A DNA stretch of 36,265 bases from Bacteroidales bacterium. GTDB taxonomy: Bacteria > Bacteroidota > Bacteroidia > Bacteroidales > PUMT01. The position numbers and the translations under genes were made by a program. Positions 10,012-36,265 of this stretch are shown here, piece after piece. Location of the stretch: NCBI GenBank assembly GCA_007132715.1, contig SLOE01000132.1, positions 1-36,265 of the forward strand. The letters are read 5' to 3'. Below the pieces are notes generated by a model that was not told the DNA's origin, did not search any database, and was given only the letters and a program-made list of their open reading frames with translations. Position 1 is the first letter of the stretch. Each line of letters begins with the position of its first letter.

Positions 10012-10075
10012 GAACTTCATGGGATACAACAGCCAGGTAAAACCTGATTGTTGTTTATTGATAAACCGGACCTGT

Positions 10076-12472
10076 ATGAGAGCAGTTGTGACGATCATTT
10101 TAATCCTTGTTTTACGTTTGTTTTTCCCTTCACTTTCATTTGCAGAAGACCCCCTTTCGGAAAAGCCGGTTGTTGACAGTCTGGAATCCTATTCTGCATT
10201 TGTGAGTCCCCAGAAGGTATATCTTCATACCGACCGTTCCTCTTACAGGGCCGGACAAACAATATGGTTCAGGGCATACCTTCTTGACGGGATAACCAAT
10301 GTCCCGGTAAAAGAGATGAATAACCTGTTTGTTGACCTGATTGATTCGCGGGGGGAATCTGTGGCGGTCAGAATGCTGCTTTCCTCTGAGGGCGGAGCTC
10401 ATGGCGATATTGTGCTTAGTTCAAATCTGCCTGACGGCAACTACATTCTCAGGGCATATACAACGTGGATGAGGAATTTTGGAGAGGAGTACTATTTCAC
10501 AAGGCATCTTTACATAAGGAATACCGCTTACGAGAATAGGATCGGGCGGGTTGACGTTTTAAGGAACAGGCTTTTTAACAGGAAGATTGACAGGATGAGC
10601 GGTAATTATGAGATTGCATTCTTCCCTGAAGGCGGCAATCTTGTGGCCGGTGCTGTCAACCGTGTTGCCTTTAAAGTAGCAGATAAGCTGGGCAGGGGGC
10701 AGGATGCGGAAGGGGAGGTAATTGACCGCAACGGAAATGTGGTTGCCAGGCTTAAAACAGACATTGCAGGAATTGGGATCTTTGACATTGAACCCGATGC
10801 CGGTAATCAATACAGGGCGCTCATTTCAGTGAACGGAGGCAGGCAGGAACGGTTCAACCTGCCGCAGGCGAGGGAGCAGGGATATGCTTTACGGATCGAC
10901 CAGGATGAGGAAAATATTAAGGTAAGGCTTACAGCAGCAGCTGGTGCAGGGGTAAACCCTGATGACCGGCAGGAGGTGGTCATTGTCGGACATACAAGAG
11001 GCAAAGTCCATTTTGCCGGTGCGTACAGGGCCGGTGATGGTATCCTTGAGGTTGATATTGACAGGGAGCTCTTCCCGTCGGGAATTGCTCACTTCACGGT
11101 CTTTACCGGCGATTATATTCCTGTTGCCGAAAGGCTTGTATTTATAGACAGAAAAGATATTCTCAGGTTCTCTGCAACGATCGACACCGTAGACCTGTTT
11201 GAAAGGGATTACATAACCTTCAGTCTTGATGTGACAGACAGCCATGGAAATCCTGTAAGCGGGACCTTTTCCCTGGCAGCTGTTACCGGCAAGCCAGACC
11301 GGGAAAGCCATTCACCGGGTATCCTGTCATACGTGCTCTTCAGCTCCGATCTGGGTGGGATGGTAGAACATCCTGATCTTTACATCGAGAAAGGAGAGGA
11401 AGGTATGCTTACAGCCGATCATTTGCTTCTTACCTATGGGTGGAGGAGGTTCAGATGGGAGGACGTTCTGGCAGGAAATATGCCCCGGATAAATTATTCC
11501 GGTCAACCCGGACTGAGTATTGCGGGACGGGTAAAAGATCCGGCAACTGATAATCCAATTCAGGACCATCCGCTTCAGTTGACAGTCAAAAGCGGTTATG
11601 ATGATGAATATATAATCACAACAAATGACCGCGGATATTTTGCCTTCCCGAATATGTATTATGAGGGTGAGGTAAGGATGGAATTGAAGGGCAGGAGAAT
11701 TGCGAGCAACTATCCTCCTGAAATTGAGCTGAGTATAAGTGAGCCCTGGGGTTATGACACAGATCCCGGTATCCATACCAGGAAACGCGCGGTAACAAGC
11801 CGTGGGGAGGATTGGCGGAGGGACCGGAGCAGGTCTGGACCAACATATGCGACTGCACCCGGACGCATTGCAGTGGCACATGAATACGGAAGGCCTGACC
11901 AGACAATCTTTATTGACCATGATGACATGATCGAGCACAACCTGCTTGAGGTTCTGAAAAACAGGGCTGTAGGTCTGATTGTTGAGGGGGATTATGTGAG
12001 GCTGCATGGTCTGACAAGTGTCTACGGGAGGACCGAGGTAGAGTATATGATCAACGGCCGGTTTGTTGACCGGAGCTGGTTTGTCAGCACCCCGATAAGG
12101 GATGTTGAAAGGATCGAGATATTCAGACATTCCAGCACCGTGGCATTCGGATCGCGGGGCGGTTCGGGGGTTGTTATCGCTTATATAAAGGAACCCGGGT
12201 ATACCGGACTTGTTGATGTGATGCATCTGATGGTCCAGGGGTACCATGAGGTTCGTGATTTTTATACTGATATGGTTTCCTATGAGGGAATTCCCGGCGA
12301 TCCCGACCAGGAGAGGATCATTTACTGGGAGCCCAATCTGTTGACCGGCCAAGATGGTACGGTCAATTTCTTTATGCCGGTTGACAAGGAATCCGGGCGG
12401 CTGGATGTGACGATACAGGGAGCAGGGTTTAACGGTTCGCTCGGATACACCAGGATGGTTATTGAGAAGTAA
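10076..12472 (+). CDS. MG2-domain protein with C-terminal TonB-receptor plug-like domain
   Basis: Start at the ATG at 10076 (MRAVVTIILILVLRLFFPSLSFAED signal). VYLHTDRSSYRAGQTIWFRAYLLDG is MG2-like; VEYMINGRFVDRSWFVSTPIRDVERIEIFRHSSTVAFGSRGGSGVVIAYIK is plug-like. Confidence 0.85.
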   Translation: MRAVVTIILILVLRLFFPSLSFAEDPLSEKPVVDSLESYSAFVSPQKVYLHTDRSSYRAGQTIWFRAYLLDGITNVPVKEMNNLFVDLIDSRGESVAVRMLLSSEGGAHGDIVLSSNLPDGNYILRAYTTWMRNFGEEYYFTRHLYIRNTAYENRIGRVDVLRNRLFNRKIDRMSGNYEIAFFPEGGNLVAGAVNRVAFKVADKLGRGQDAEGEVIDRNGNVVARLKTDIAGIGIFDIEPDAGNQYRALISVNGGRQERFNLPQAREQGYALRIDQDEENIKVRLTAAAGAGVNPDDRQEVVIVGHTRGKVHFAGAYRAGDGILEVDIDRELFPSGIAHFTVFTGDYIPVAERLVFIDRKDILRFSATIDTVDLFERDYITFSLDVTDSHGNPVSGTFSLAAVTGKPDRESHSPGILSYVLFSSDLGGMVEHPDLYIEKGEEGMLTADHLLLTYGWRRFRWEDVLAGNMPRINYSGQPGLSIAGRVKDPATDNPIQDHPLQLTVKSGYDDEYIITTNDRGYFAFPNMYYEGEVRMELKGRRIASNYPPEIELSISEPWGYDTDPGIHTRKRAVTSRGEDWRRDRSRSGPTYATAPGRIAVAHEYGRPDQTIFIDHDDMIEHNLLEVLKNRAVGLIVEGDYVRLHGLTSVYGRTEVEYMINGRFVDRSWFVSTPIRDVERIEIFRHSSTVAFGSRGGSGVVIAYIKEPGYTGLVDVMHLMVQGYHEVRDFYTDMVSYEGIPGDPDQERIIYWEPNLLTGQDGTVNFFMPVDKESGRLDVTIQGAGFNGSLGYTRMVIEK

Positions 12473-24882: not shown

Positions 24883-26328
24883 CTATTCAACAGGCACCAG
24901 CCTGTAGATGACCCCCGGATTTTCGACTGCAACGTAAACCATACCGTCCGGGCCCATATCAACATTGCGCACACGCCCGATCTCCCGCAGCAGTATCTCC
25001 TCGTGAACCACCTCTTCGCCCTCAATCTCGTTGCGTACAAGGTAGCGGAAGCTGAGCGATCCTGAGAGAATACTGTTTTCCCACGCCATGAAGGGCTCAC
25101 CCGTAACGAAGGTCATCCCGCAGGGGGCGATCGAGGGTGTCCATTCGATCACCGGCTGTTCCATCCCCTCTTTTTCGGTAAGCTCGGTAATGATGGTTCC
25201 GTTGTAGTTTATGCCGTAGGAGATCACCGGCCAGCCATAGTTGAGCCCCTTACTTATAATGTTCAGCTCATCACCGCCGCGCGGACCATGCTCGGTGGAC
25301 CATATCACACCGGTTTCAGGGTGCTTTACAAGTCCCTGCGGGTTCCTGTGCCCGTACGACCAGATGGAAGGCATGGCGCCGGGATGGTCAACAAAGGGAT
25401 TGTCGGCAGGAATGGTTCCGTCATCATTTATGCGGTGTATCTTGCCTGCGTGGTTGGTGAGGTCCTGTGAATTGTCCCAGTTCCCCCTGTCGCCTATCGA
25501 AAAATAAAGGTAGCCGTCATCGCAGAAAACCATACGGCATCCGAAATGAACCCCATTGCGGGTGTCCGGAAGCCCTTTGAAAATTTCCTCTTTGTCGACC
25601 AGCCGGTTACCATCAAGTCTGGCCCTCATTATGGCAGTGTTGCCTCCTTCAGCAGGTCCACCCGGCCCGTAGGTGGAATATGAAAGGTATAACCAGCCGT
25701 TATTCTCATAACCGGGATGGAGGCGCAGGTCCAGCAGTCCCCCCTGCCCATGTGCAAAAATGGGGGGCAGACCCTCGATAACACTGACAAATATACCGTC
25801 ATTGAACCTGAAAAGCTGACCGCTCCTTTCGCCGACCAGCATGTCGCCGTCCGGCAGCCAGACCATGCCCCACGGCACCTCAAGTCCGGTGATTAGCGTG
25901 TCAAGCCGGAAGGTCAGTCTTTCTGTTCTCTGGACCGGGTCCATCGCAGGACGGTAATCAAAGGTTCTGCTGGCCTCCTTCATGTCGGTAAGGATATAGG
26001 TTGCAATGTCGCTGATCTCATCAGCAGACAGCGCATCGCCAAAAGCCGGCATACCGGTATTGAGGTCACCGTCCCTGATGATAGCAACCATCTGGTCAAC
26101 CGGCATGTTGAACATTGCCTCACGGTCTTCTCCAACAAACCGTTCCATATGCATTCCGTGGCAGGATGCACAGTAGCGTTCATAGTTGGAAACTGCCTGG
26201 GACTTGTCCGATATCGCGCTGGTAATTAACTCTCCTTCAATATATTCAGTTTCTGATGGCTTGATGAACCAGATAAGGGCCATCACCGGGATAAGAAGGA
26301 GGAAACTGTAAAGATACCTTGAGTTCAT
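24883..26328 (-). CDS. PQQ-dependent sugar dehydrogenase-like protein with N-terminal cytochrome c domain
   Basis: YCASCHGMHMERFVG heme motif; GLEVPWGMVWLPDGDMLVGERSGQL; WSTEHGPRGGDELNII; GKIHRINDDGTIPADNPF. Confidence 0.92.
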   Translation of the reverse strand: MNSRYLYSFLLLIPVMALIWFIKPSETEYIEGELITSAISDKSQAVSNYERYCASCHGMHMERFVGEDREAMFNMPVDQMVAIIRDGDLNTGMPAFGDALSADEISDIATYILTDMKEASRTFDYRPAMDPVQRTERLTFRLDTLITGLEVPWGMVWLPDGDMLVGERSGQLFRFNDGIFVSVIEGLPPIFAHGQGGLLDLRLHPGYENNGWLYLSYSTYGPGGPAEGGNTAIMRARLDGNRLVDKEEIFKGLPDTRNGVHFGCRMVFCDDGYLYFSIGDRGNWDNSQDLTNHAGKIHRINDDGTIPADNPFVDHPGAMPSIWSYGHRNPQGLVKHPETGVIWSTEHGPRGGDELNIISKGLNYGWPVISYGINYNGTIITELTEKEGMEQPVIEWTPSIAPCGMTFVTGEPFMAWENSILSGSLSFRYLVRNEIEGEEVVHEEILLREIGRVRNVDMGPDGMVYVAVENPGVIYRLVPVE

Positions 26329-28914: not shown

Positions 28915-30150
28915 ATGGTACAAAAGAAAAAGTTCACCCTCACAATCTGGATATTTGCCGGGTTTTTCCTTGGGATCCTGACCGGCGCCCTGGCCGGCGA
29001 ACCGGTCCTTCCGTACACTGATGTGCTTGCCGACATCTTCCTCAGGCTCCTGCGGATGGCCATACTGCCCCTGGTAATCACTTCCGTTATAAGTTCAATA
29101 ATACAGGTGGGTTCGGCAGGGGGACTGGGAAGGATGGGCTTGCGCACCATGGTGTATTACCTGTCTACCAGCCTGCTGGCTATATTTACCGGGCAGATAC
29201 TGGTAAATATATTCAAGCCCGGTGAAGGTGCCGGTATAGTCCTCGAAGAAAATCCCGATACCATTGCTGCTGCAGAGCGGGGACTTGGACGGCTGTTCCT
29301 CGATATCATTCCCGAAAACCCTTTTGCCGCTGCGGCTTCGGGCGACGTGTTGCCGGTAATTTTCTTTTCCATACTGTTCGGTCTTTTTGTCACACAGCTT
29401 AAAGCCGATCAGAGAAGCCTGCTGGGGGGATTTTTCGAGGCCGCGTTCGAGGCCATGATGAAGATGACCTCCTTTATAATCTGGTCGGCGCCATTCGGCG
29501 TGTTTGGCATTATCACGGGAATTGTCGCCACCTCCGGTTTCTCTGCGTTCAGGTCGCTGGGGTTCTACTTTTTGATAGTGCTCGGGGGACTGGCAATACA
29601 TATGTTTTTTACACTGCCGTTGCTGCTGTGGGTGCTGGGCAGGGTGAGCCCGGTCAAGCATTACAAGGGGATGATCCCGGCGCTGCTTACAGCTTTCTCA
29701 ACATGCTCGACCATTGTGACACTTCCGTTAACCCTTAAAGCTGTTACTGAAAATTCAGGGGCTTCGCGGAGGGCCGCAGGCTTTGTGCTCCCGATAGGCG
29801 CAACGGTAAATATGGACGGGACCGCATTGTATGAATGTGTGGCAGTGATCTTTATTGCGCAGGTTTACGGGTTTGACCTATCACTGGGAGGACAGGTGAC
29901 AGTGGCGGTGACAGCAGTGCTTGCCTCGATCGGTGCGGCGAGCATACCGATGAGCGGGATGGTGATGATGTCGATCATCCTCGGTGCGGTGGGACTGCCG
30001 CTTGAGGGTGTTGCCATCATACTTGCGGTGGACAGGATACTGGATATGTTCCGCACCACGGCCAATGTCTTCAGCGACAGTTGCGGCGCGGTCATCATCT
30101 CCAGGTTTGATGAACGGGATAAAAGCACCCCTCCGGTTAAGACCGGCTGA
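28915..30150 (+). CDS. Dicarboxylate/amino acid:cation symporter (DAACS/SDF family)
   Basis: MAILPLVITSVISSI, AFSTCSTIVTLPLTLKAV, GATVNMDGTALYECVAVIFIAQ, DRILDMFRTTANVFSDSCGAVII. Confidence 0.95.
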   Translation: MVQKKKFTLTIWIFAGFFLGILTGALAGEPVLPYTDVLADIFLRLLRMAILPLVITSVISSIIQVGSAGGLGRMGLRTMVYYLSTSLLAIFTGQILVNIFKPGEGAGIVLEENPDTIAAAERGLGRLFLDIIPENPFAAAASGDVLPVIFFSILFGLFVTQLKADQRSLLGGFFEAAFEAMMKMTSFIIWSAPFGVFGIITGIVATSGFSAFRSLGFYFLIVLGGLAIHMFFTLPLLLWVLGRVSPVKHYKGMIPALLTAFSTCSTIVTLPLTLKAVTENSGASRRAAGFVLPIGATVNMDGTALYECVAVIFIAQVYGFDLSLGGQVTVAVTAVLASIGAASIPMSGMVMMSIILGAVGLPLEGVAIILAVDRILDMFRTTANVFSDSCGAVIISRFDERDKSTPPVKTG

Positions 30151-30305
30151 CGGTCCTTCATATTGTGTTGCGGCGCCATAAGAATCACTGATTTTAATGA
30201 ACGGCAAATTAGCCCAGCGCAAATAACTCAGGCAGGATCAAACTGTCTTATCTGTTGAAGGCATGGTGATGTATTATTTCTTATATTCGTATAAAATTTT
30301 CTGAT

Positions 30306-31331
30306 ATGAAGGTTAAAATTATACTGTTATTTACTGCCTCTGTTATTTTCATGAATGCTGCGGGCAGCGGGATACAGGCACAGGATGAACCGCTTGCCGA
30401 ACAGATCAGGGGCCTGGTACAGCATGAGGCGTTCATGCTGAACCTTCTCGTTCAGTCCGGCTTCAGGTACTCACTGTCTGATGATGATTTCCAGGGCGGC
30501 AGGACCTTCGAGGTAGCAAATGCAAGGGTAAGCCTGAGGGGCGAGATCGACAACAGGTTCTATTACCGTATACTTGTCAATATGGCCAGTGAGCCCAACC
30601 TGCTTGATGCCTATGCAGGCTACAGGCACAGTGATGCCCTGAGGATAACAGCCGGTGCGATGAAGCCCAGCCAGACGGCTGACTATATTGTTTCTCCGCA
30701 GGAAACTGACTTCGTTGACAGGGCGAGGATCACGGGGCATCTGGTGCAGTCGCGAGAGATCGGACTGGCCGCCGAGGGTGATATCAATGGTTTTTATTAC
30801 TATTCAGGAATATTCAACGGCAGCAGGCTGACCGACAACAATAACAATAAATTCTACGGTATCGGGAGGCTGCAGTATACCTTTGATGATGCTGTTCCCG
30901 GTACGCTGCAGGTTGCAGTGTCAGGTTCCCATGGTGATTCGCGCGGAATCAGGAGCGGCAGTGTGGGTCCGGTACTGAGGGGCGAACGATCTATTTATGG
31001 CGCTGATCTGAGGATGGAGACAGCCACAGTCCTGCTTGCTGCAGAATACCTTGCAGGGAACGTCGAGATAGCTGAGCTTCCCGGCAGCAAGGAACTTATA
31101 AGCGGGTATTACCTCACAGGCGGTTACCGCTTTGCTGAAAGCACCATGGCCCTTGTGCGCTGGCAATCCTGGGGATACAGGGAGAGGGATTTTCGCGACA
31201 ACCAGCTTACTTTTGGCATTAACCATGATTTTACCGGGATAACCAGCTTCCAGGCAAATTTTGATGCCTATTTTCCGGAAGAGGGTGACAACCGTTTCGG
31301 TCTGTCACTGATTCTGCAGGTCTACTTCTGA
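30306..31331 (+). CDS. Outer-membrane porin (O/P-like beta-barrel)
   Basis: Signal peptide MKVKIILLFTASVIFMNAAGSGIQAQ; alternating amphipathic strands; GRTFEVANARVSLRGEIDNRFYYRILVN; aromatic C-terminus LILQVYF. Confidence 0.8.
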   Translation: MKVKIILLFTASVIFMNAAGSGIQAQDEPLAEQIRGLVQHEAFMLNLLVQSGFRYSLSDDDFQGGRTFEVANARVSLRGEIDNRFYYRILVNMASEPNLLDAYAGYRHSDALRITAGAMKPSQTADYIVSPQETDFVDRARITGHLVQSREIGLAAEGDINGFYYYSGIFNGSRLTDNNNNKFYGIGRLQYTFDDAVPGTLQVAVSGSHGDSRGIRSGSVGPVLRGERSIYGADLRMETATVLLAAEYLAGNVEIAELPGSKELISGYYLTGGYRFAESTMALVRWQSWGYRERDFRDNQLTFGINHDFTGITSFQANFDAYFPEEGDNRFGLSLILQVYF

Positions 31332-31416: not shown

Positions 31417-32595
31417 ATGAACTGTCAGCGCCGGCGTAGTTTTGTCAAAAAAGCTTTTATCGGGTGTGCAGGTTTTATTTCCCTGGGGTGCCTGCCGTTT
31501 GTCCGGGATCCTTTAGCTGCAACCGGCAATCCGGGGATGAGCAGGGGGGGCGGTGGTGTGCAACCGGCACAGGGCACCGATGGCTCCGAGGCGATGTTCT
31601 ACAGCAAGCTTGACAATAATGTGGTGCAATGTCAGCTTTGTCCGCATCGTTGCAAAATTGAGCCAGGCAACAGCGGATTTTGCAGGGTGCGGCGAAACAG
31701 GCGCGGCACTCTCTACAGTATGGTTTACGGCAGGCCCTGCACGGTCGATGTCGGTCCCATAGAGAAGGCCCCCCTCTACCATTTTGTGCCTGGCCACCGG
31801 CGATTGTGCCTTGCAACGGTCGGATGCAACCTCAGGTGCAGGTACTGCCATAACTGGCACATATCACAGCGTGGACCCGGCGAGGTGCGGGAGCTGCGGA
31901 TGAGTGCCTCACAGATTGTTGATGAGGCAGCAAGGCAGGGAGTGCGTTCCATCTCGTTCACCTATTCCGAACCAACAATATTTTATGAATATGTTTATGA
32001 TATAAGCAGGCTTGCGAAGGATCGGGGACTGAAAACGAGCATCGTGTCGAACGGTTATATTAACCCGGAACCGATGCGCCGGCTGCTGCCGCATCTGGAT
32101 GCGGTTAAAATCGACCTTAAGGCATTCAGTGATTCCTTTTACAGGGATATTTCCTCTGCAAGCCTTGACCCTGTACTCCGGACCCTGCAGTTGCTCAGGG
32201 AAGAGGGCGCCTTTTTTGAAATTGTATGCCTGGTGGTGCCAACGCTCAACGATGACCCGGTTGATATCAAAATGATGTGTGAATGGATAGCTGGCAACCT
32301 GGGGAGGGATGTTCCGTTACACTTTACCAGGTTTGCCCCTTCATACCGGCTCACAAACCTGCCGTCAACCCCGGTGAGGACCCTGGAGGCTGCAATCGGG
32401 ATCGCCCTTGGCAGTGGCCTCAGGTACGTCTATATTGGTAATGTTCCGGGACACATGAATAACTCAACCTATTGTCCCCGTTGCGACGAAAGGCTTATTC
32501 ACCGCACCCATTTCACGGTGCTGGAGAACAATATTGAAAATGGTAAATGCAGGTACTGCGGTTATGCGATACGCGGTATCTGGGAAGCAGTTTGA
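31417..32595 (+). CDS. amrS: AmmeMemoRadiSam-type radical SAM enzyme with twin-arginine-like signal
   Basis: MNCQRRRSFVKKAFIGCAGFISLGC signal-like; CQLCPHRCKIEPGNSGFC; radical SAM CNLRCRYCHNWHISQ; C-terminal CPRC...CRYCG. Confidence 0.88.
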   Translation: MNCQRRRSFVKKAFIGCAGFISLGCLPFVRDPLAATGNPGMSRGGGGVQPAQGTDGSEAMFYSKLDNNVVQCQLCPHRCKIEPGNSGFCRVRRNRRGTLYSMVYGRPCTVDVGPIEKAPLYHFVPGHRRLCLATVGCNLRCRYCHNWHISQRGPGEVRELRMSASQIVDEAARQGVRSISFTYSEPTIFYEYVYDISRLAKDRGLKTSIVSNGYINPEPMRRLLPHLDAVKIDLKAFSDSFYRDISSASLDPVLRTLQLLREEGAFFEIVCLVVPTLNDDPVDIKMMCEWIAGNLGRDVPLHFTRFAPSYRLTNLPSTPVRTLEAAIGIALGSGLRYVYIGNVPGHMNNSTYCPRCDERLIHRTHFTVLENNIENGKCRYCGYAIRGIWEAV

Positions 32596-32637
32596 GGTGT
32601 GACCGGACTGGCAATTTGAAAACTAAACTGATTTGTT

Positions 32638-33843
32638 ATGACTACCAGCAGGCGTGAATTTATTGTAAAGGCAGTGCTTGGCGGAGCTGCCGCCCTGTCG
32701 GCGGGATGCATGCTGCTGAGCGGTGCAAGGGGCAGGCTGCGTGGTGGCCCTGCCCTGGCTGCATCAGCCCTGCTGCCGTCTGACCGGGGAGGCGTGGACT
32801 TCCGCGAAAGCGAAATTATTAATGAGAACCCGGGGGGAATTGAGGCGATGTACTATTCGGCGGACGACAGGAACAGGGTGAGTTGTGAGCTGTGCTACCG
32901 CAACTGTGTTATTGCCCCGGGCAGAAGGGGGTTCTGCCGTAACAGGGAAAACAGCCGGGGAAGCCTGTATAACGTAGTTTACGGCAGGCCGTCGGCGGTT
33001 CATGTCGATCCGGTGGAGAAGGAGCCCCAGCACCACCTGCTGCCGGGAGCCGAGATGCTGAGTATCGGCACGGCGGGGTGCAATTTCAGGTGCCTGCATT
33101 GCCATAACTGGCACCTGTCGCAGCGGTCGATCGAAGAGATAGGACGCTACCATGACCTGCCTCCGCGCGATGTTGTAAGTACTGCCCGGGAACTTGGTGT
33201 GAGCATTATCTCATCCACCTATAACGAGCCGACTGTCTTTTATGAGTATGTTCTGGATACGGCCAGGATAGCAAGGCCGGAGGGGTTTAAGATATTGTGG
33301 CACTCAAACGGATACATGAAGCCTGAGCCGCTGGTTGAACTGCTGGGCCATACCGATGCGGTGACGGTTGACCTGAAAGGGTTCTCGAAAAGGGCCTATG
33401 ACAACTCCTCGGCCGAGCTTGAGCCGGTGCTGGAAACTCTGAAGATCATCAGGCATGAGGGTGTCTGGCTCGAGATAGTCAACCTGGTGATACCGGGAGT
33501 GAACGATTCGATGGCCGAGATAGGGGAGATGTGCTCCTGGATAAGGGATAACCTTTCGCCTGAGGTGCCCCTCCACCTCTCAAGGTTCTTCCCAAATTAC
33601 AAGCTTACCAACCTGTCGCCCACTCCTGTTGCAACTCTTGAAAGGGCTTTTGACACTGCAAGAAAGGCCGGCCTTGATTATGTTACGCTGGGTAACGTTC
33701 CCGGGCATGAATACAACTCCACTTTTTGCCCGCGCTGCGGTGAGATCCTTATCAGGCGCGTCCATTTCAAGGTGACGGAGAACAATATTACGGACGGCAG
33801 GTGTGCTTCCTGCAGACATAACATTCCCGGTATATGGAGCTGA
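32638..33843 (+). CDS. amrS: AmmeMemoRadiSam-type radical SAM enzyme, tandem paralog, with twin-arginine/lipobox signal
   Basis: MTTSRREFIVKAVLGGAAALSAGC; CELCYRNCVIAPGRRGFC; CNFRCLHCHNWHLSQ; C-terminal CPRC...CASC. Closely similar throughout to the preceding protein. Confidence 0.88.
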   Translation: MTTSRREFIVKAVLGGAAALSAGCMLLSGARGRLRGGPALAASALLPSDRGGVDFRESEIINENPGGIEAMYYSADDRNRVSCELCYRNCVIAPGRRGFCRNRENSRGSLYNVVYGRPSAVHVDPVEKEPQHHLLPGAEMLSIGTAGCNFRCLHCHNWHLSQRSIEEIGRYHDLPPRDVVSTARELGVSIISSTYNEPTVFYEYVLDTARIARPEGFKILWHSNGYMKPEPLVELLGHTDAVTVDLKGFSKRAYDNSSAELEPVLETLKIIRHEGVWLEIVNLVIPGVNDSMAEIGEMCSWIRDNLSPEVPLHLSRFFPNYKLTNLSPTPVATLERAFDTARKAGLDYVTLGNVPGHEYNSTFCPRCGEILIRRVHFKVTENNITDGRCASCRHNIPGIWS

Positions 33844-33874
33844 GGTGGAAGGTGCGGCGGCAAAATCACCAGCA

Positions 33875-36265
33875 ATGATGAGGCGAAAAATAGTTTCTGC
33901 GGTCATCCTGATGGGGTTCAGCGGTCTAGTCGCGCAGATAGTGCTGTTGCGTGAACTGATGGTGGCTTTTCACGGCAATGAGCTTTCCATTGGCGTGGTG
34001 CTGGCCAACTGGATGCTGCTGGAAGCAGCCGGTGCATTTTTCCTTGGCAGGAGGATTGCCGGTTCGCCTCGGCGGAGGCTGCTGTTTATTGGCGTGACCG
34101 TGATGTTTTCGTTGTTTTTCCCTGCTGCCGTTTACTTTGCAAGGGTGTTCAAGGATATGATGAGCCTTGTGCCGGGAGAGGGCATTGGCATCATGCCCAT
34201 GTTCTACGTGTCGTTTCTTATACTCCTTCCTGTCAGCGTCTTTCACGGGGCGCTCTTTACCGCCGGCTGCAAGCTGTACTCCCAGTTGTCGTTGCCCGGC
34301 AAAGAGGGGGGGACAGAAGAGGCAGGCGGGCACGGGGCCGGGCAGGGTGCAGTCAAAAACACCGGGCACGATGCCGGCCGTTTTGTCGGACAGGGTGATG
34401 ACAGCTGCGGCGATAATGATGCCGGGCAGGGGGCCGGCAGTATCGCGCGGGTTTATATCTACGAGACGGTAGGGACGCTGGTTGGGGGACTGGTACTGAC
34501 TTACCTGCTGATTCCTCATCTTCACTCGGTGAAAATAGCTGTCCTGACCGCCCTTTTTAACTTCGCTGTTTGTGCCTGGCTGCTGAAGCCGTTCAGGAGC
34601 CAGGCAGCATCGTTTGCAGACCGGGCAGGATGGGTGTTGCTCACTGCCCTGATCCTGTTTTCAGGTAACCTGGTGTTCAGGGGAGGATCTGACCGCCTGC
34701 ATGAACATTCGGTTAACAGGCAATGGAGAGGCCAGGAGGTGGTGCATTACCAGAATTCGCATTACGGCAATATCGTGGTTGTGGAGAACATGCAGGAGTA
34801 TACCTTTTTTTCGGACGGACTGCCGGTTATAACTGCTCCCAATCCGGATATTGTCTTTATTGAGGAGTTCGTACACTTCCCGATGCTGTCGCATCCTGAT
34901 CCGCTGGACATACTGGTGCTGAGCGGCGGAGCCGGCGGTGTTATAAGCGAGATACTGAAGCACGGTGTACAGAGGGTTGATTATGCTGAGGTTGACCCGC
35001 TTATACCCGAGGTTATAGGCAGGTTTTCCACTTCGCTCACCGACCGGGAACTTGGTGATGAGCGTGTTAAAGTGAGGTATGCCGACGGAAGGTTCTTCCT
35101 GAAACGCACTGAACAGACCTATGACCTGATATTCAGCGGATTTACCGATCCCTCGTCACTGCAGTCGAACAGGTTTTTTACCCGTGAGTTTTTCTCTATT
35201 GTAGAAAGCAAGCTTTCGCGGAAGGGGATCTTTGTACTTGCCCTGCCTGGGTCGCTCACCTATATGAGTCCCGAACTGGCTATGCTTAACGGACTGGTGC
35301 TGGCCACGCTGGAGGATGTATTCAACGTGGTTCGGGTTATACCCGGCGACGGAACAAACCTCTACCTTGCTTCCGGATCGTACTCTTCTGCTTTTCCTGA
35401 TGCGGGAGAGATGATGGCCAGGGCCGGTTCACGTGATATCAGTTTCAGCCTTATAACACCGGGGTACCTGGAATACCGCCTTCATGAGAGATGGCAGGAG
35501 TGGTTCCATGATAACCTTGGGGATACCGGCGGGAGAATTAACGAGGATTTCAGGCCGCTGGGGGTCTTTTACAGCCTTGTGTGGTGGAATGAGAAGTTCT
35601 CACCTTCGTTCAACAGGATTTTCAGGCAAAGTGAAGGGATAAGCATTTCGATGATGTCAATTGTTTTCCTGTTGCTGACCGGTTTGGCACTGGTTTACTC
35701 TGCACGACTGAAGCAGCCGGTCAGGCCCGCACTGTCGTTCTGCATTGTTTCAACAGGTTTTGCCGGCATGCTCTTCGACCTCATCCTGATATTTGCTTTT
35801 CAGGTGCTGTTTGGCTATATTTTTTACTGGCTCGGACTGCTTGTTACGGCGTTCATGGCTGGTGTGGCTGCCGGGGGACTGTGGATGACCCGGCGCATAA
35901 AAAGGATGGACAGTGTGCTGCCCGGTATCATCAGGCTGGAGATGCTAATTTTGCTTTTCGCTTTGGTGCTGCCCTGGATATTCACATTTTCGGCACCACT
36001 GCTGGTTCATCCCTGGTTCGATCTCCTGCTGAGGATCATGTTCCTGTTGCTCTCTTTCCTGTCGGGCCTGCTCGTGGGGGCTGAGTTTCCACTTGCCAAC
36101 AGGGAATACCTGAAGATGTCGGGCGATATCGGTGGTACAGCCGGGTTGCTGTACAGTGCCGACCTGTGGGGAGGATGGATAGGCGGTATCCTGGGCGGGG
36201 TGGTGTTGCTGCCGGTACTCGGACTGGTACAGAGTTCGCTGGTGATTGTGATGTTCAAGGCAAGC
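33875..36265 (+). CDS. Polytopic membrane protein with spermidine synthase-like domain; 3' end outside window
   Basis: Own translation, frame open to the last base: MMRRKIVSAVILMGFSGLVAQIVLLRELMVAFHGNELSIGVVLANWMLLEAAGAFFLGRRI...DILVLSGGAGGVISEILKHGVQRVDYAEVDPLIPEVIGRF...YDLIFSGFTDPSSLQSNRFFTREFFSIV...GAEFPLANREY. Missing from the ORF track. Confidence 0.88.
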   Translation, partial: MMRRKIVSAVILMGFSGLVAQIVLLRELMVAFHGNELSIGVVLANWMLLEAAGAFFLGRRIAGSPRRRLLFIGVTVMFSLFFPAAVYFARVFKDMMSLVPGEGIGIMPMFYVSFLILLPVSVFHGALFTAGCKLYSQLSLPGKEGGTEEAGGHGAGQGAVKNTGHDAGRFVGQGDDSCGDNDAGQGAGSIARVYIYETVGTLVGGLVLTYLLIPHLHSVKIAVLTALFNFAVCAWLLKPFRSQAASFADRAGWVLLTALILFSGNLVFRGGSDRLHEHSVNRQWRGQEVVHYQNSHYGNIVVVENMQEYTFFSDGLPVITAPNPDIVFIEEFVHFPMLSHPDPLDILVLSGGAGGVISEILKHGVQRVDYAEVDPLIPEVIGRFSTSLTDRELGDERVKVRYADGRFFLKRTEQTYDLIFSGFTDPSSLQSNRFFTREFFSIVESKLSRKGIFVLALPGSLTYMSPELAMLNGLVLATLEDVFNVVRVIPGDGTNLYLASGSYSSAFPDAGEMMARAGSRDISFSLITPGYLEYRLHERWQEWFHDNLGDTGGRINEDFRPLGVFYSLVWWNEKFSPSFNRIFRQSEGISISMMSIVFLLLTGLALVYSARLKQPVRPALSFCIVSTGFAGMLFDLILIFAFQVLFGYIFYWLGLLVTAFMAGVAAGGLWMTRRIKRMDSVLPGIIRLEMLILLFALVLPWIFTFSAPLLVHPWFDLLLRIMFLLLSFLSGLLVGAEFPLANREYLKMSGDIGGTAGLLYSADLWGGWIGGILGGVVLLPVLGLVQSSLVIVMFKAS

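Follow-up and report, generated by a model that had tools for sequence, protein, structure and literature searches.

Three adjacent genes at positions 31,417 to 36,265 of a 36,265-nucleotide stretch of DNA from a Bacteroidales bacterium (GenBank assembly GCA_007132715.1, contig SLOE01000132.1; "the window" below means this whole stretch) are described here. Two of them encode AmmeMemoRadiSam radical S-adenosylmethionine (SAM) enzymes, AmrS-alpha and AmrS-gamma, with N-termini resembling twin-arginine translocation (Tat) signals. The third encodes a polytopic membrane protein with a spermidine-synthase-like (SpeE-like) Rossmann domain. On balance, the three genes are somewhat more readily explained than otherwise as a derived version of an exported AmmeMemoRadiSam cassette that is conserved in Bacteroidota and would act as a periplasmic module for SAM-dependent modification. 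The evidence is read from sequence: family identities, signals, conserved gene linkage, the lack of AMMECR1, the history of AmrS duplication, the loss of an acidic residue and an outward charge bias. The genes and their main features are as follows.

31417..32595, + strand: AmrS-alpha, AmmeMemoRadiSam radical SAM enzyme with an N-terminal Tat-type signal, 392 aa (TIGR04337, Pfam Radical_SAM, alpha branch of the tree)
31417..31500, + strand: Tat-type signal of AmrS-alpha, MNCQRRRSFVKKAFIGCAGFISLGCLPF, with a Cys compatible with a relaxed lipobox; export predicted (sequence, N-terminal survey)
31825..31848, + strand: CX3CX2C [4Fe-4S] motif of AmrS-alpha, CNLRCRYC (sequence)
32638..33843, + strand: AmrS-gamma, second AmmeMemoRadiSam radical SAM enzyme with a Tat-type signal, 401 aa (TIGR04337, gamma branch)
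32638..32721, + strand: Tat-type signal of AmrS-gamma, MTTSRREFIVKAVLGGAAALSAGCMLLS, with a Cys compatible with a relaxed lipobox; export predicted (sequence, N-terminal survey)
33079..33102, + strand: CX3CX2C motif of AmrS-gamma, CNFRCLHC (sequence)
33875..36265, + strand, frame still open where the contig stops: polytopic SpeE-like protein (797 aa within the window), seven transmembrane (TM) helices, Rossmann domain and six or seven further TM helices (NF037959, PF01564, alignment, topology)
34922..34939, + strand: SAM-loop motif SGGAGG; the Asp/Glu of spermidine synthases (GxG(D/E)G) is Ala here (alignment with solved spermidine synthases)
35135..35152, + strand: SGFTDP, at the site of the spermidine synthase DSxDP catalytic motif, with the first Asp changed to Gly (alignment)

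Conserved linkage of AmrS and the SpeE-like gene

Sixty genomes were searched for AmrS, AMMECR1, Memo, TatC and SpeE-like proteins, and the gene neighbourhoods and N-termini were then read. A Tat-signal AmrS and a SpeE-like protein occur together in 18 genomes, a Tat-signal AmrS alone in 2, a SpeE-like protein alone in none, and neither in 40 (Fisher test, 2e-13). In both genomes with AmrS alone, the contig breaks directly after AmrS. Outside the window's family, the same four classes hold 10, 0, 0 and 34 genomes (4e-10). A phylum sample of 398 genomes gave 8 further genomes with a SpeE-like protein. A Tat-signal AmrS lies near the SpeE-like gene in seven of these; the eighth locus is truncated where its contig stops.

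A third component is often found in the same place. A fusion of Memo and AMMECR1 bearing a Sec-type signal is also nearby in 6 of the 7 cassettes from the phylum sample. Over both samples, 18 genomes outside the window's family have a SpeE-like gene, and in 14 of them a Memo-AMMECR1 fusion lies beside or near it.

The linkage between AmrS and the SpeE-like gene is retained across many families, and the arrangement of the cassette varies. The order can be Memo-AMMECR1, SpeE-like, AmrS; or AmrS, Memo-AMMECR1, SpeE-like; Memo can be divergent from a SpeE-like/AmrS pair; or an array of AmrS genes can precede the SpeE-like gene. Because gene order differs, inheritance of the block is less likely to be the whole cause of the linkage. 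Two other routes were considered and rejected. Plasmid spread found no backing, as no plasmid with a full-length SpeE-like protein was seen; two plasmids carry Memo-AMMECR1 and a signal-less AmrS, with no SpeE-like gene annotated. For a viral origin, no relative of AmrS-gamma was present among viral contigs. A contig scan beyond Bacteroidota returned one locus only.

In the window itself, the genes are separated by gaps of 42 bp (AmrS-alpha to AmrS-gamma) and 31 bp (AmrS-gamma to the SpeE-like gene). The ratio of nonsynonymous to synonymous substitution rates (dN/dS) against relatives is 0.09-0.15 for AmrS-alpha, AmrS-gamma and the SpeE-like gene, and all three are therefore under purifying selection.

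A first-pass annotation of the sequence had described three same-strand genes with these gaps, two signal-bearing AmmeMemoRadiSam proteins and a polytopic protein with a spermidine-synthase-like domain, and had proposed that they belong together. The coordinates, the family assignments and the conserved linkage all bear this out. A lack of conserved linkage between the radical SAM pair and the SpeE-like gene, which the annotation had named as grounds against its proposal, is contradicted by the survey. It had further pictured a membrane-associated unit using SAM. That is the natural reading of the linkage and stands, with the refinement that, given the signals, the unit probably works in the periplasm.

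The signal-bearing AmrS pair

Both enzymes are clear members of their family, scoring 356.5 bits (AmrS-alpha) and 336.3 bits (AmrS-gamma) against a curated TIGR04337 cut-off of 220. They are 50% identical to one another, and both retain the CX3CX2C motif, the N-terminal Cys motif and the C-terminal zinc-ribbon Cys residues. Their Tat-like N-termini read RRRSFVKK in AmrS-alpha and SRREFIVK in AmrS-gamma.

Two kinds of AmrS are found across the survey: one with a Tat signal, and one without a signal, in which the domain begins a few residues from the start. The AmrS tree separates them. All Tat copies fall within one supported clade of 38 rows, and 21 signal-less copies form a separate supported clade. 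The tree comprises 59 AmrS, of which 33 bear a Tat signal. None has lost the CX3CX2C motif, and the copies are therefore not degenerating.

The window's family contributes 17 Tat copies, which group in a single clade (support 99) and all carry an RR-x-F/Y Tat motif. Within the family there are three branches, alpha, beta and gamma. Since each spans two genera, the family ancestor probably had three exported AmrS, and the tree suggests that they stood as an alpha-beta-gamma array ahead of the SpeE-like gene. Two members of the array, alpha (31417) and gamma (32638), are retained in the window.

The SpeE-like membrane protein

The third protein scores 81.5 bits against Pfam Spermine_synth (PF01564; cut-off 22.9) and 61 bits against the NCBIfam model "fused MFS/spermidine synthase" (NF037959; cut-off 40). 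Against the curated speE model it reaches 97 bits, far below the cut-off of 250. Seven N-terminal TM helices are followed by the Rossmann domain and then by six or seven more helices. Pfam recognises the Rossmann domain alone and neither of the membrane parts.

Evidence for the orientation of the protein is provided by the distribution of charged residues. In all 24 SpeE-like proteins analysed by the positive-inside rule, Lys and Arg favour the loops that place the Rossmann domain outside, with densities of 0.07-0.31 inside and 0.02-0.08 outside. The N-terminus is thus predicted to be cytoplasmic and the Rossmann domain is probably in the periplasm.

The nearest solved structures by sequence are spermidine synthases, and the domain aligns well with those of B. 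subtilis and T. maritima. The alignment shows the Asp of GGGDGG replaced by Ala and the first Asp of DSxDP replaced by Gly. The Asp/Glu of GxG(D/E)G is absent from every family member inspected, and the first catalytic Asp of DSxDP is replaced in nearly all members. Because of the loss of the former residue, spermidine synthesis is unlikely, and identification of the protein as a spermidine synthase was rejected on these two motifs.

Six SpeE-like members (L039, L040, L041, L043, L045 and L125) have an N-terminal extension of three helices with three invariant histidines (HRKxWN, WHV and FH). The extension matches DUF4405, cytochrome b561 and ferric reductase weakly, in each case below threshold. 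In some lineages it may be a haem-b entry point for electrons.

Memo and AMMECR1 partners

The Memo-AMMECR1 fusions of other families were verified by Pfam. In SpeE-bearing genomes, the fusion has a Sec-type or lipoprotein-type N-terminus in every case with a readable start. The iron ligands of MEMO1 are H49, H81 and C244 (PMC11081632), and counterparts of this H/H/C set are present in most of the fusions.

The Sec-signal fusion is absent from the window's family, while most cassettes of other families have it. AMMECR1 is missing altogether from the window's own genome and from 15 relatives in the same family (16 genomes, one of them 98% complete). Memo does occur in the window's genome, on another contig and beside a separate signal-less AmrS; none lies beside the tandem pair. 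At that other locus (C171, 36728-38744), the signal-less AmrS is directly followed by Memo, forming a two-part version of the canonical system.

The first-pass annotation held that the operon runs off the right edge of the window and suggested a search for AMMECR1- or Memo-like genes beyond it. The reading frame is indeed open at the contig end. The window is an entire contig (C38) of a draft genome (2.46 Mb, 171 contigs, 85% complete), so the truncation is an assembly limit. Alignment with an 817-aa orthologue places about 20 C-terminal residues of the SpeE-like protein beyond the edge. In three relatives the SpeE-like gene closes the run and a convergent gene comes next. With the run ending there and AMMECR1 absent from all 16 family genomes, the idea of an AMMECR1 or Memo gene just past the edge was rejected.

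Proposed mechanism

Actual export, periplasmic use of SAM, the electron source, the reaction and the substrate are inferred in the following scheme. AmrS would be folded and loaded with its Fe-S cluster, then carried to the periplasmic side via Tat, where some copies might be lipid-anchored. In a full cassette, the Memo-AMMECR1 fusion, with its predicted metal ligands intact, would reach the same side via Sec. The SpeE-like protein would span the inner membrane, and its periplasmic Rossmann domain would bind SAM or a SAM product and supply it or hand it on. In addition or instead, this domain might methylate a periplasmic target, as the fungal enzyme NHMT does with secreted lytic polysaccharide monooxygenases. 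The radical enzymes would modify a target in the envelope.

In the window's family, the Memo-AMMECR1 partner was lost and AmrS was duplicated into the alpha-beta-gamma array; alpha and gamma remain in this genome. The copies were probably kept because they divide the work.

The scheme suggests that an enzyme system of unknown function, ordinarily found in the cytoplasm, has been relocated beyond the inner membrane. In its strongest form, the whole SAM-dependent pathway (radical SAM enzymes, Memo-AMMECR1 and a membrane SAM-binding protein) would be outside, and the periplasm would have to be supplied with both SAM and low-potential electrons. This stronger form is plausible but should be held tentatively.

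Weighing the alternatives

The main rival to a periplasmic module is that the N-terminal segments are anchors only. AmrS would then stay on the cytoplasmic face, tethered to the membrane beside the SpeE-like protein, and would draw on SAM and reductant from the cytoplasm like any ordinary radical SAM enzyme. Established radical SAM chemistry requires SAM and a low-potential donor, both of which are cytoplasmic; we know of no periplasmic SAM pool or electron donor, and a partial literature search turned up no report of a radical SAM enzyme working in the periplasm. KR takes the place of RR in most AmrS signals outside the window's family; Tat can use this variant, though not by preference. One cassette (genome G028) includes a signal-less AmrS; in it, the signal-less copy adjoins a Tat-signal copy (contig C110, 318-2489). 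These points weigh against the periplasmic module, and others do so as well. TatC, present in 12 of 12 congeners, was not found in the window's own 85%-complete genome. In two genomes (G018 and G041) and on a Segatella hominis plasmid, the signal is on Memo-AMMECR1 and the AmrS is signal-less and C-terminally short; no SpeE-like gene was detected in any of the three. Since secreted Memo-AMMECR1 can be paired with a signal-less AmrS where the SpeE-like gene is absent, export signals do not co-vary perfectly. AlphaFold2 models made from two or three sequences were unusable or weak (predicted local distance difference test scores, pLDDT, of 35 and 55). The association itself contains few independent changes on the tree, and with 2-5 independent pairs a phylogenetically corrected test cannot reach significance. 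Against anchors on the cytoplasmic face stand the RR-x-F/Y motifs in 17 of 17 copies of the window's family, the Sec signals on the Memo-AMMECR1 partner and the outward prediction for the Rossmann domain in 24 of 24 proteins. Anchoring alone is judged improbable, though it is the alternative to be taken most seriously. In G018, G041 and the Segatella hominis plasmid, Memo-AMMECR1 and AmrS would sit in different compartments.

Other explanations concern the SpeE-like protein. Its main role could be to transport or carry SAM, or else a by-product of radical SAM chemistry; the Rossmann domain would then serve for capture, and AmrS would be the sole catalysts. The 13-14 TM helices flanking the domain and the family name "fused MFS" fit this, and an exported radical SAM enzyme would require delivery of SAM; no resemblance to any known SAM transporter came to light, however, and Pfam recognises nothing but the Rossmann domain. 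A transport role is rather unlikely. A membrane-bound spermidine synthase, which would make the cassette one concerned with polyamines, is suggested by the NCBIfam name and by the nearest solved structures. It is contradicted by the score far under the curated speE cut-off, by the absence in every member inspected of the acidic residue that binds decarboxylated SAM, and by replacement of the first catalytic Asp in nearly all; the NHMT paper excludes spermidine synthase activity by the same loss (PMC10349129). Polyamine synthesis is thus very unlikely. Least probable by far is that the genes are ordinary neighbours without functional linkage and the tandem AmrS are relics. The small number of countable evolutionary changes leaves some room for it, but linkage kept through different gene orders in many families contradicts it, as do purifying selection and the intact catalytic Cys residues.

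Genomic surroundings

Upstream of the cassette (28915-31331) are a dicarboxylate/glutamate symporter gene and a phosphate-selective-porin-like gene. Their order is kept in a close relative (L033) and is different in L035; because of this difference they are probably outside the cassette. Positions 1-24000 hold genes for polysaccharide degradation, including GH43, alpha-L-fucosidase, GH10, GH127, several GFO/IDH/MocA oxidoreductases and a polysaccharide lyase 14 bearing a secretion tail. An 817-aa protein at 10019-12472 combines an MG2 domain with a weak match to a TonB-dependent receptor plug, which is unusual. At 24883-26328, a Glucose/sorbosone dehydrogenase domain and a c-type cytochrome domain are joined in one fusion.

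Comparison with known systems

MEMO1 and AMMECR1 are disease-linked human proteins whose primary function is unknown, and their bacterial relatives accompany a radical SAM enzyme. A periplasmic version of the system would narrow the possible substrates, making cytoplasmic tRNA, DNA and most cofactors unlikely. The SpeE-like protein would add a third constant partner, open to deletion and assay. If true, radical SAM chemistry outside the membrane would challenge the cytoplasm-only view and point to unknown routes of SAM and electron delivery.

The association of AMMECR1, Memo and a radical SAM enzyme is already known (NCBIfam; PMC7159879, citing the main previous comparison of Memo-AMMECR1 contexts, Burroughs et al. 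2019), and AMMECR1 was listed among uncharacterised proteins as of 2019 (PMC6393860). No description of an exported cassette with a SpeE-like partner was found in a partial literature search that did not include Burroughs et al. 2019, and no paper on the "fused MFS" spermidine synthase was found.

Pyruvate formate-lyase activating enzyme is the closest solved structure to AmrS by sequence (8fo0, 3c8f). AmrS differs in having extra N-terminal Cys and C-terminal zinc-ribbon motifs, and no glycyl-radical enzyme gene was seen adjoining it.

The window's membrane protein resembles the NF037959 family in scoring above its cut-off, but it lacks key residues for the activity that the family is named after. 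To our knowledge, this family has no link with AmrS.

Similar in design is fungal NHMT (AN4663), a protein histidine methyltransferase of the endoplasmic reticulum that has seven TM helices and a SpeE-like domain and acts on secreted enzymes (PMC10349129). The two share the seven N-terminal helices and the SpeE-like Rossmann domain, and both have lost the acidic residue from the GxG(D/E)G motif. The domain of the window's protein is predicted to face outward. Unlike that protein, NHMT has neither a C-terminal TM bundle nor radical SAM partners. The likeness is taken as an analogy of design, not as proof that the TM parts are homologous.

The AmmeMemoRadiSam system itself (amrA/amrB/amrS) is among the closest known systems. 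The window's AmrS score above the TIGR04337 cut-off, and in relatives AmrS is accompanied by Memo and AMMECR1 domains. The same genome also has the signal-less type, as the AmrS-Memo pair, and so does an Ideonella plasmid. The cassette described here differs from the known system in the export signals on AmrS and Memo-AMMECR1 and in its constant polytopic SpeE-like partner; the window's family differs further in having two or three AmrS copies and no AMMECR1. The best reading is that the exported form with a SpeE-like partner is new, and that the underlying AmmeMemoRadiSam association is a known, uncharacterised one.

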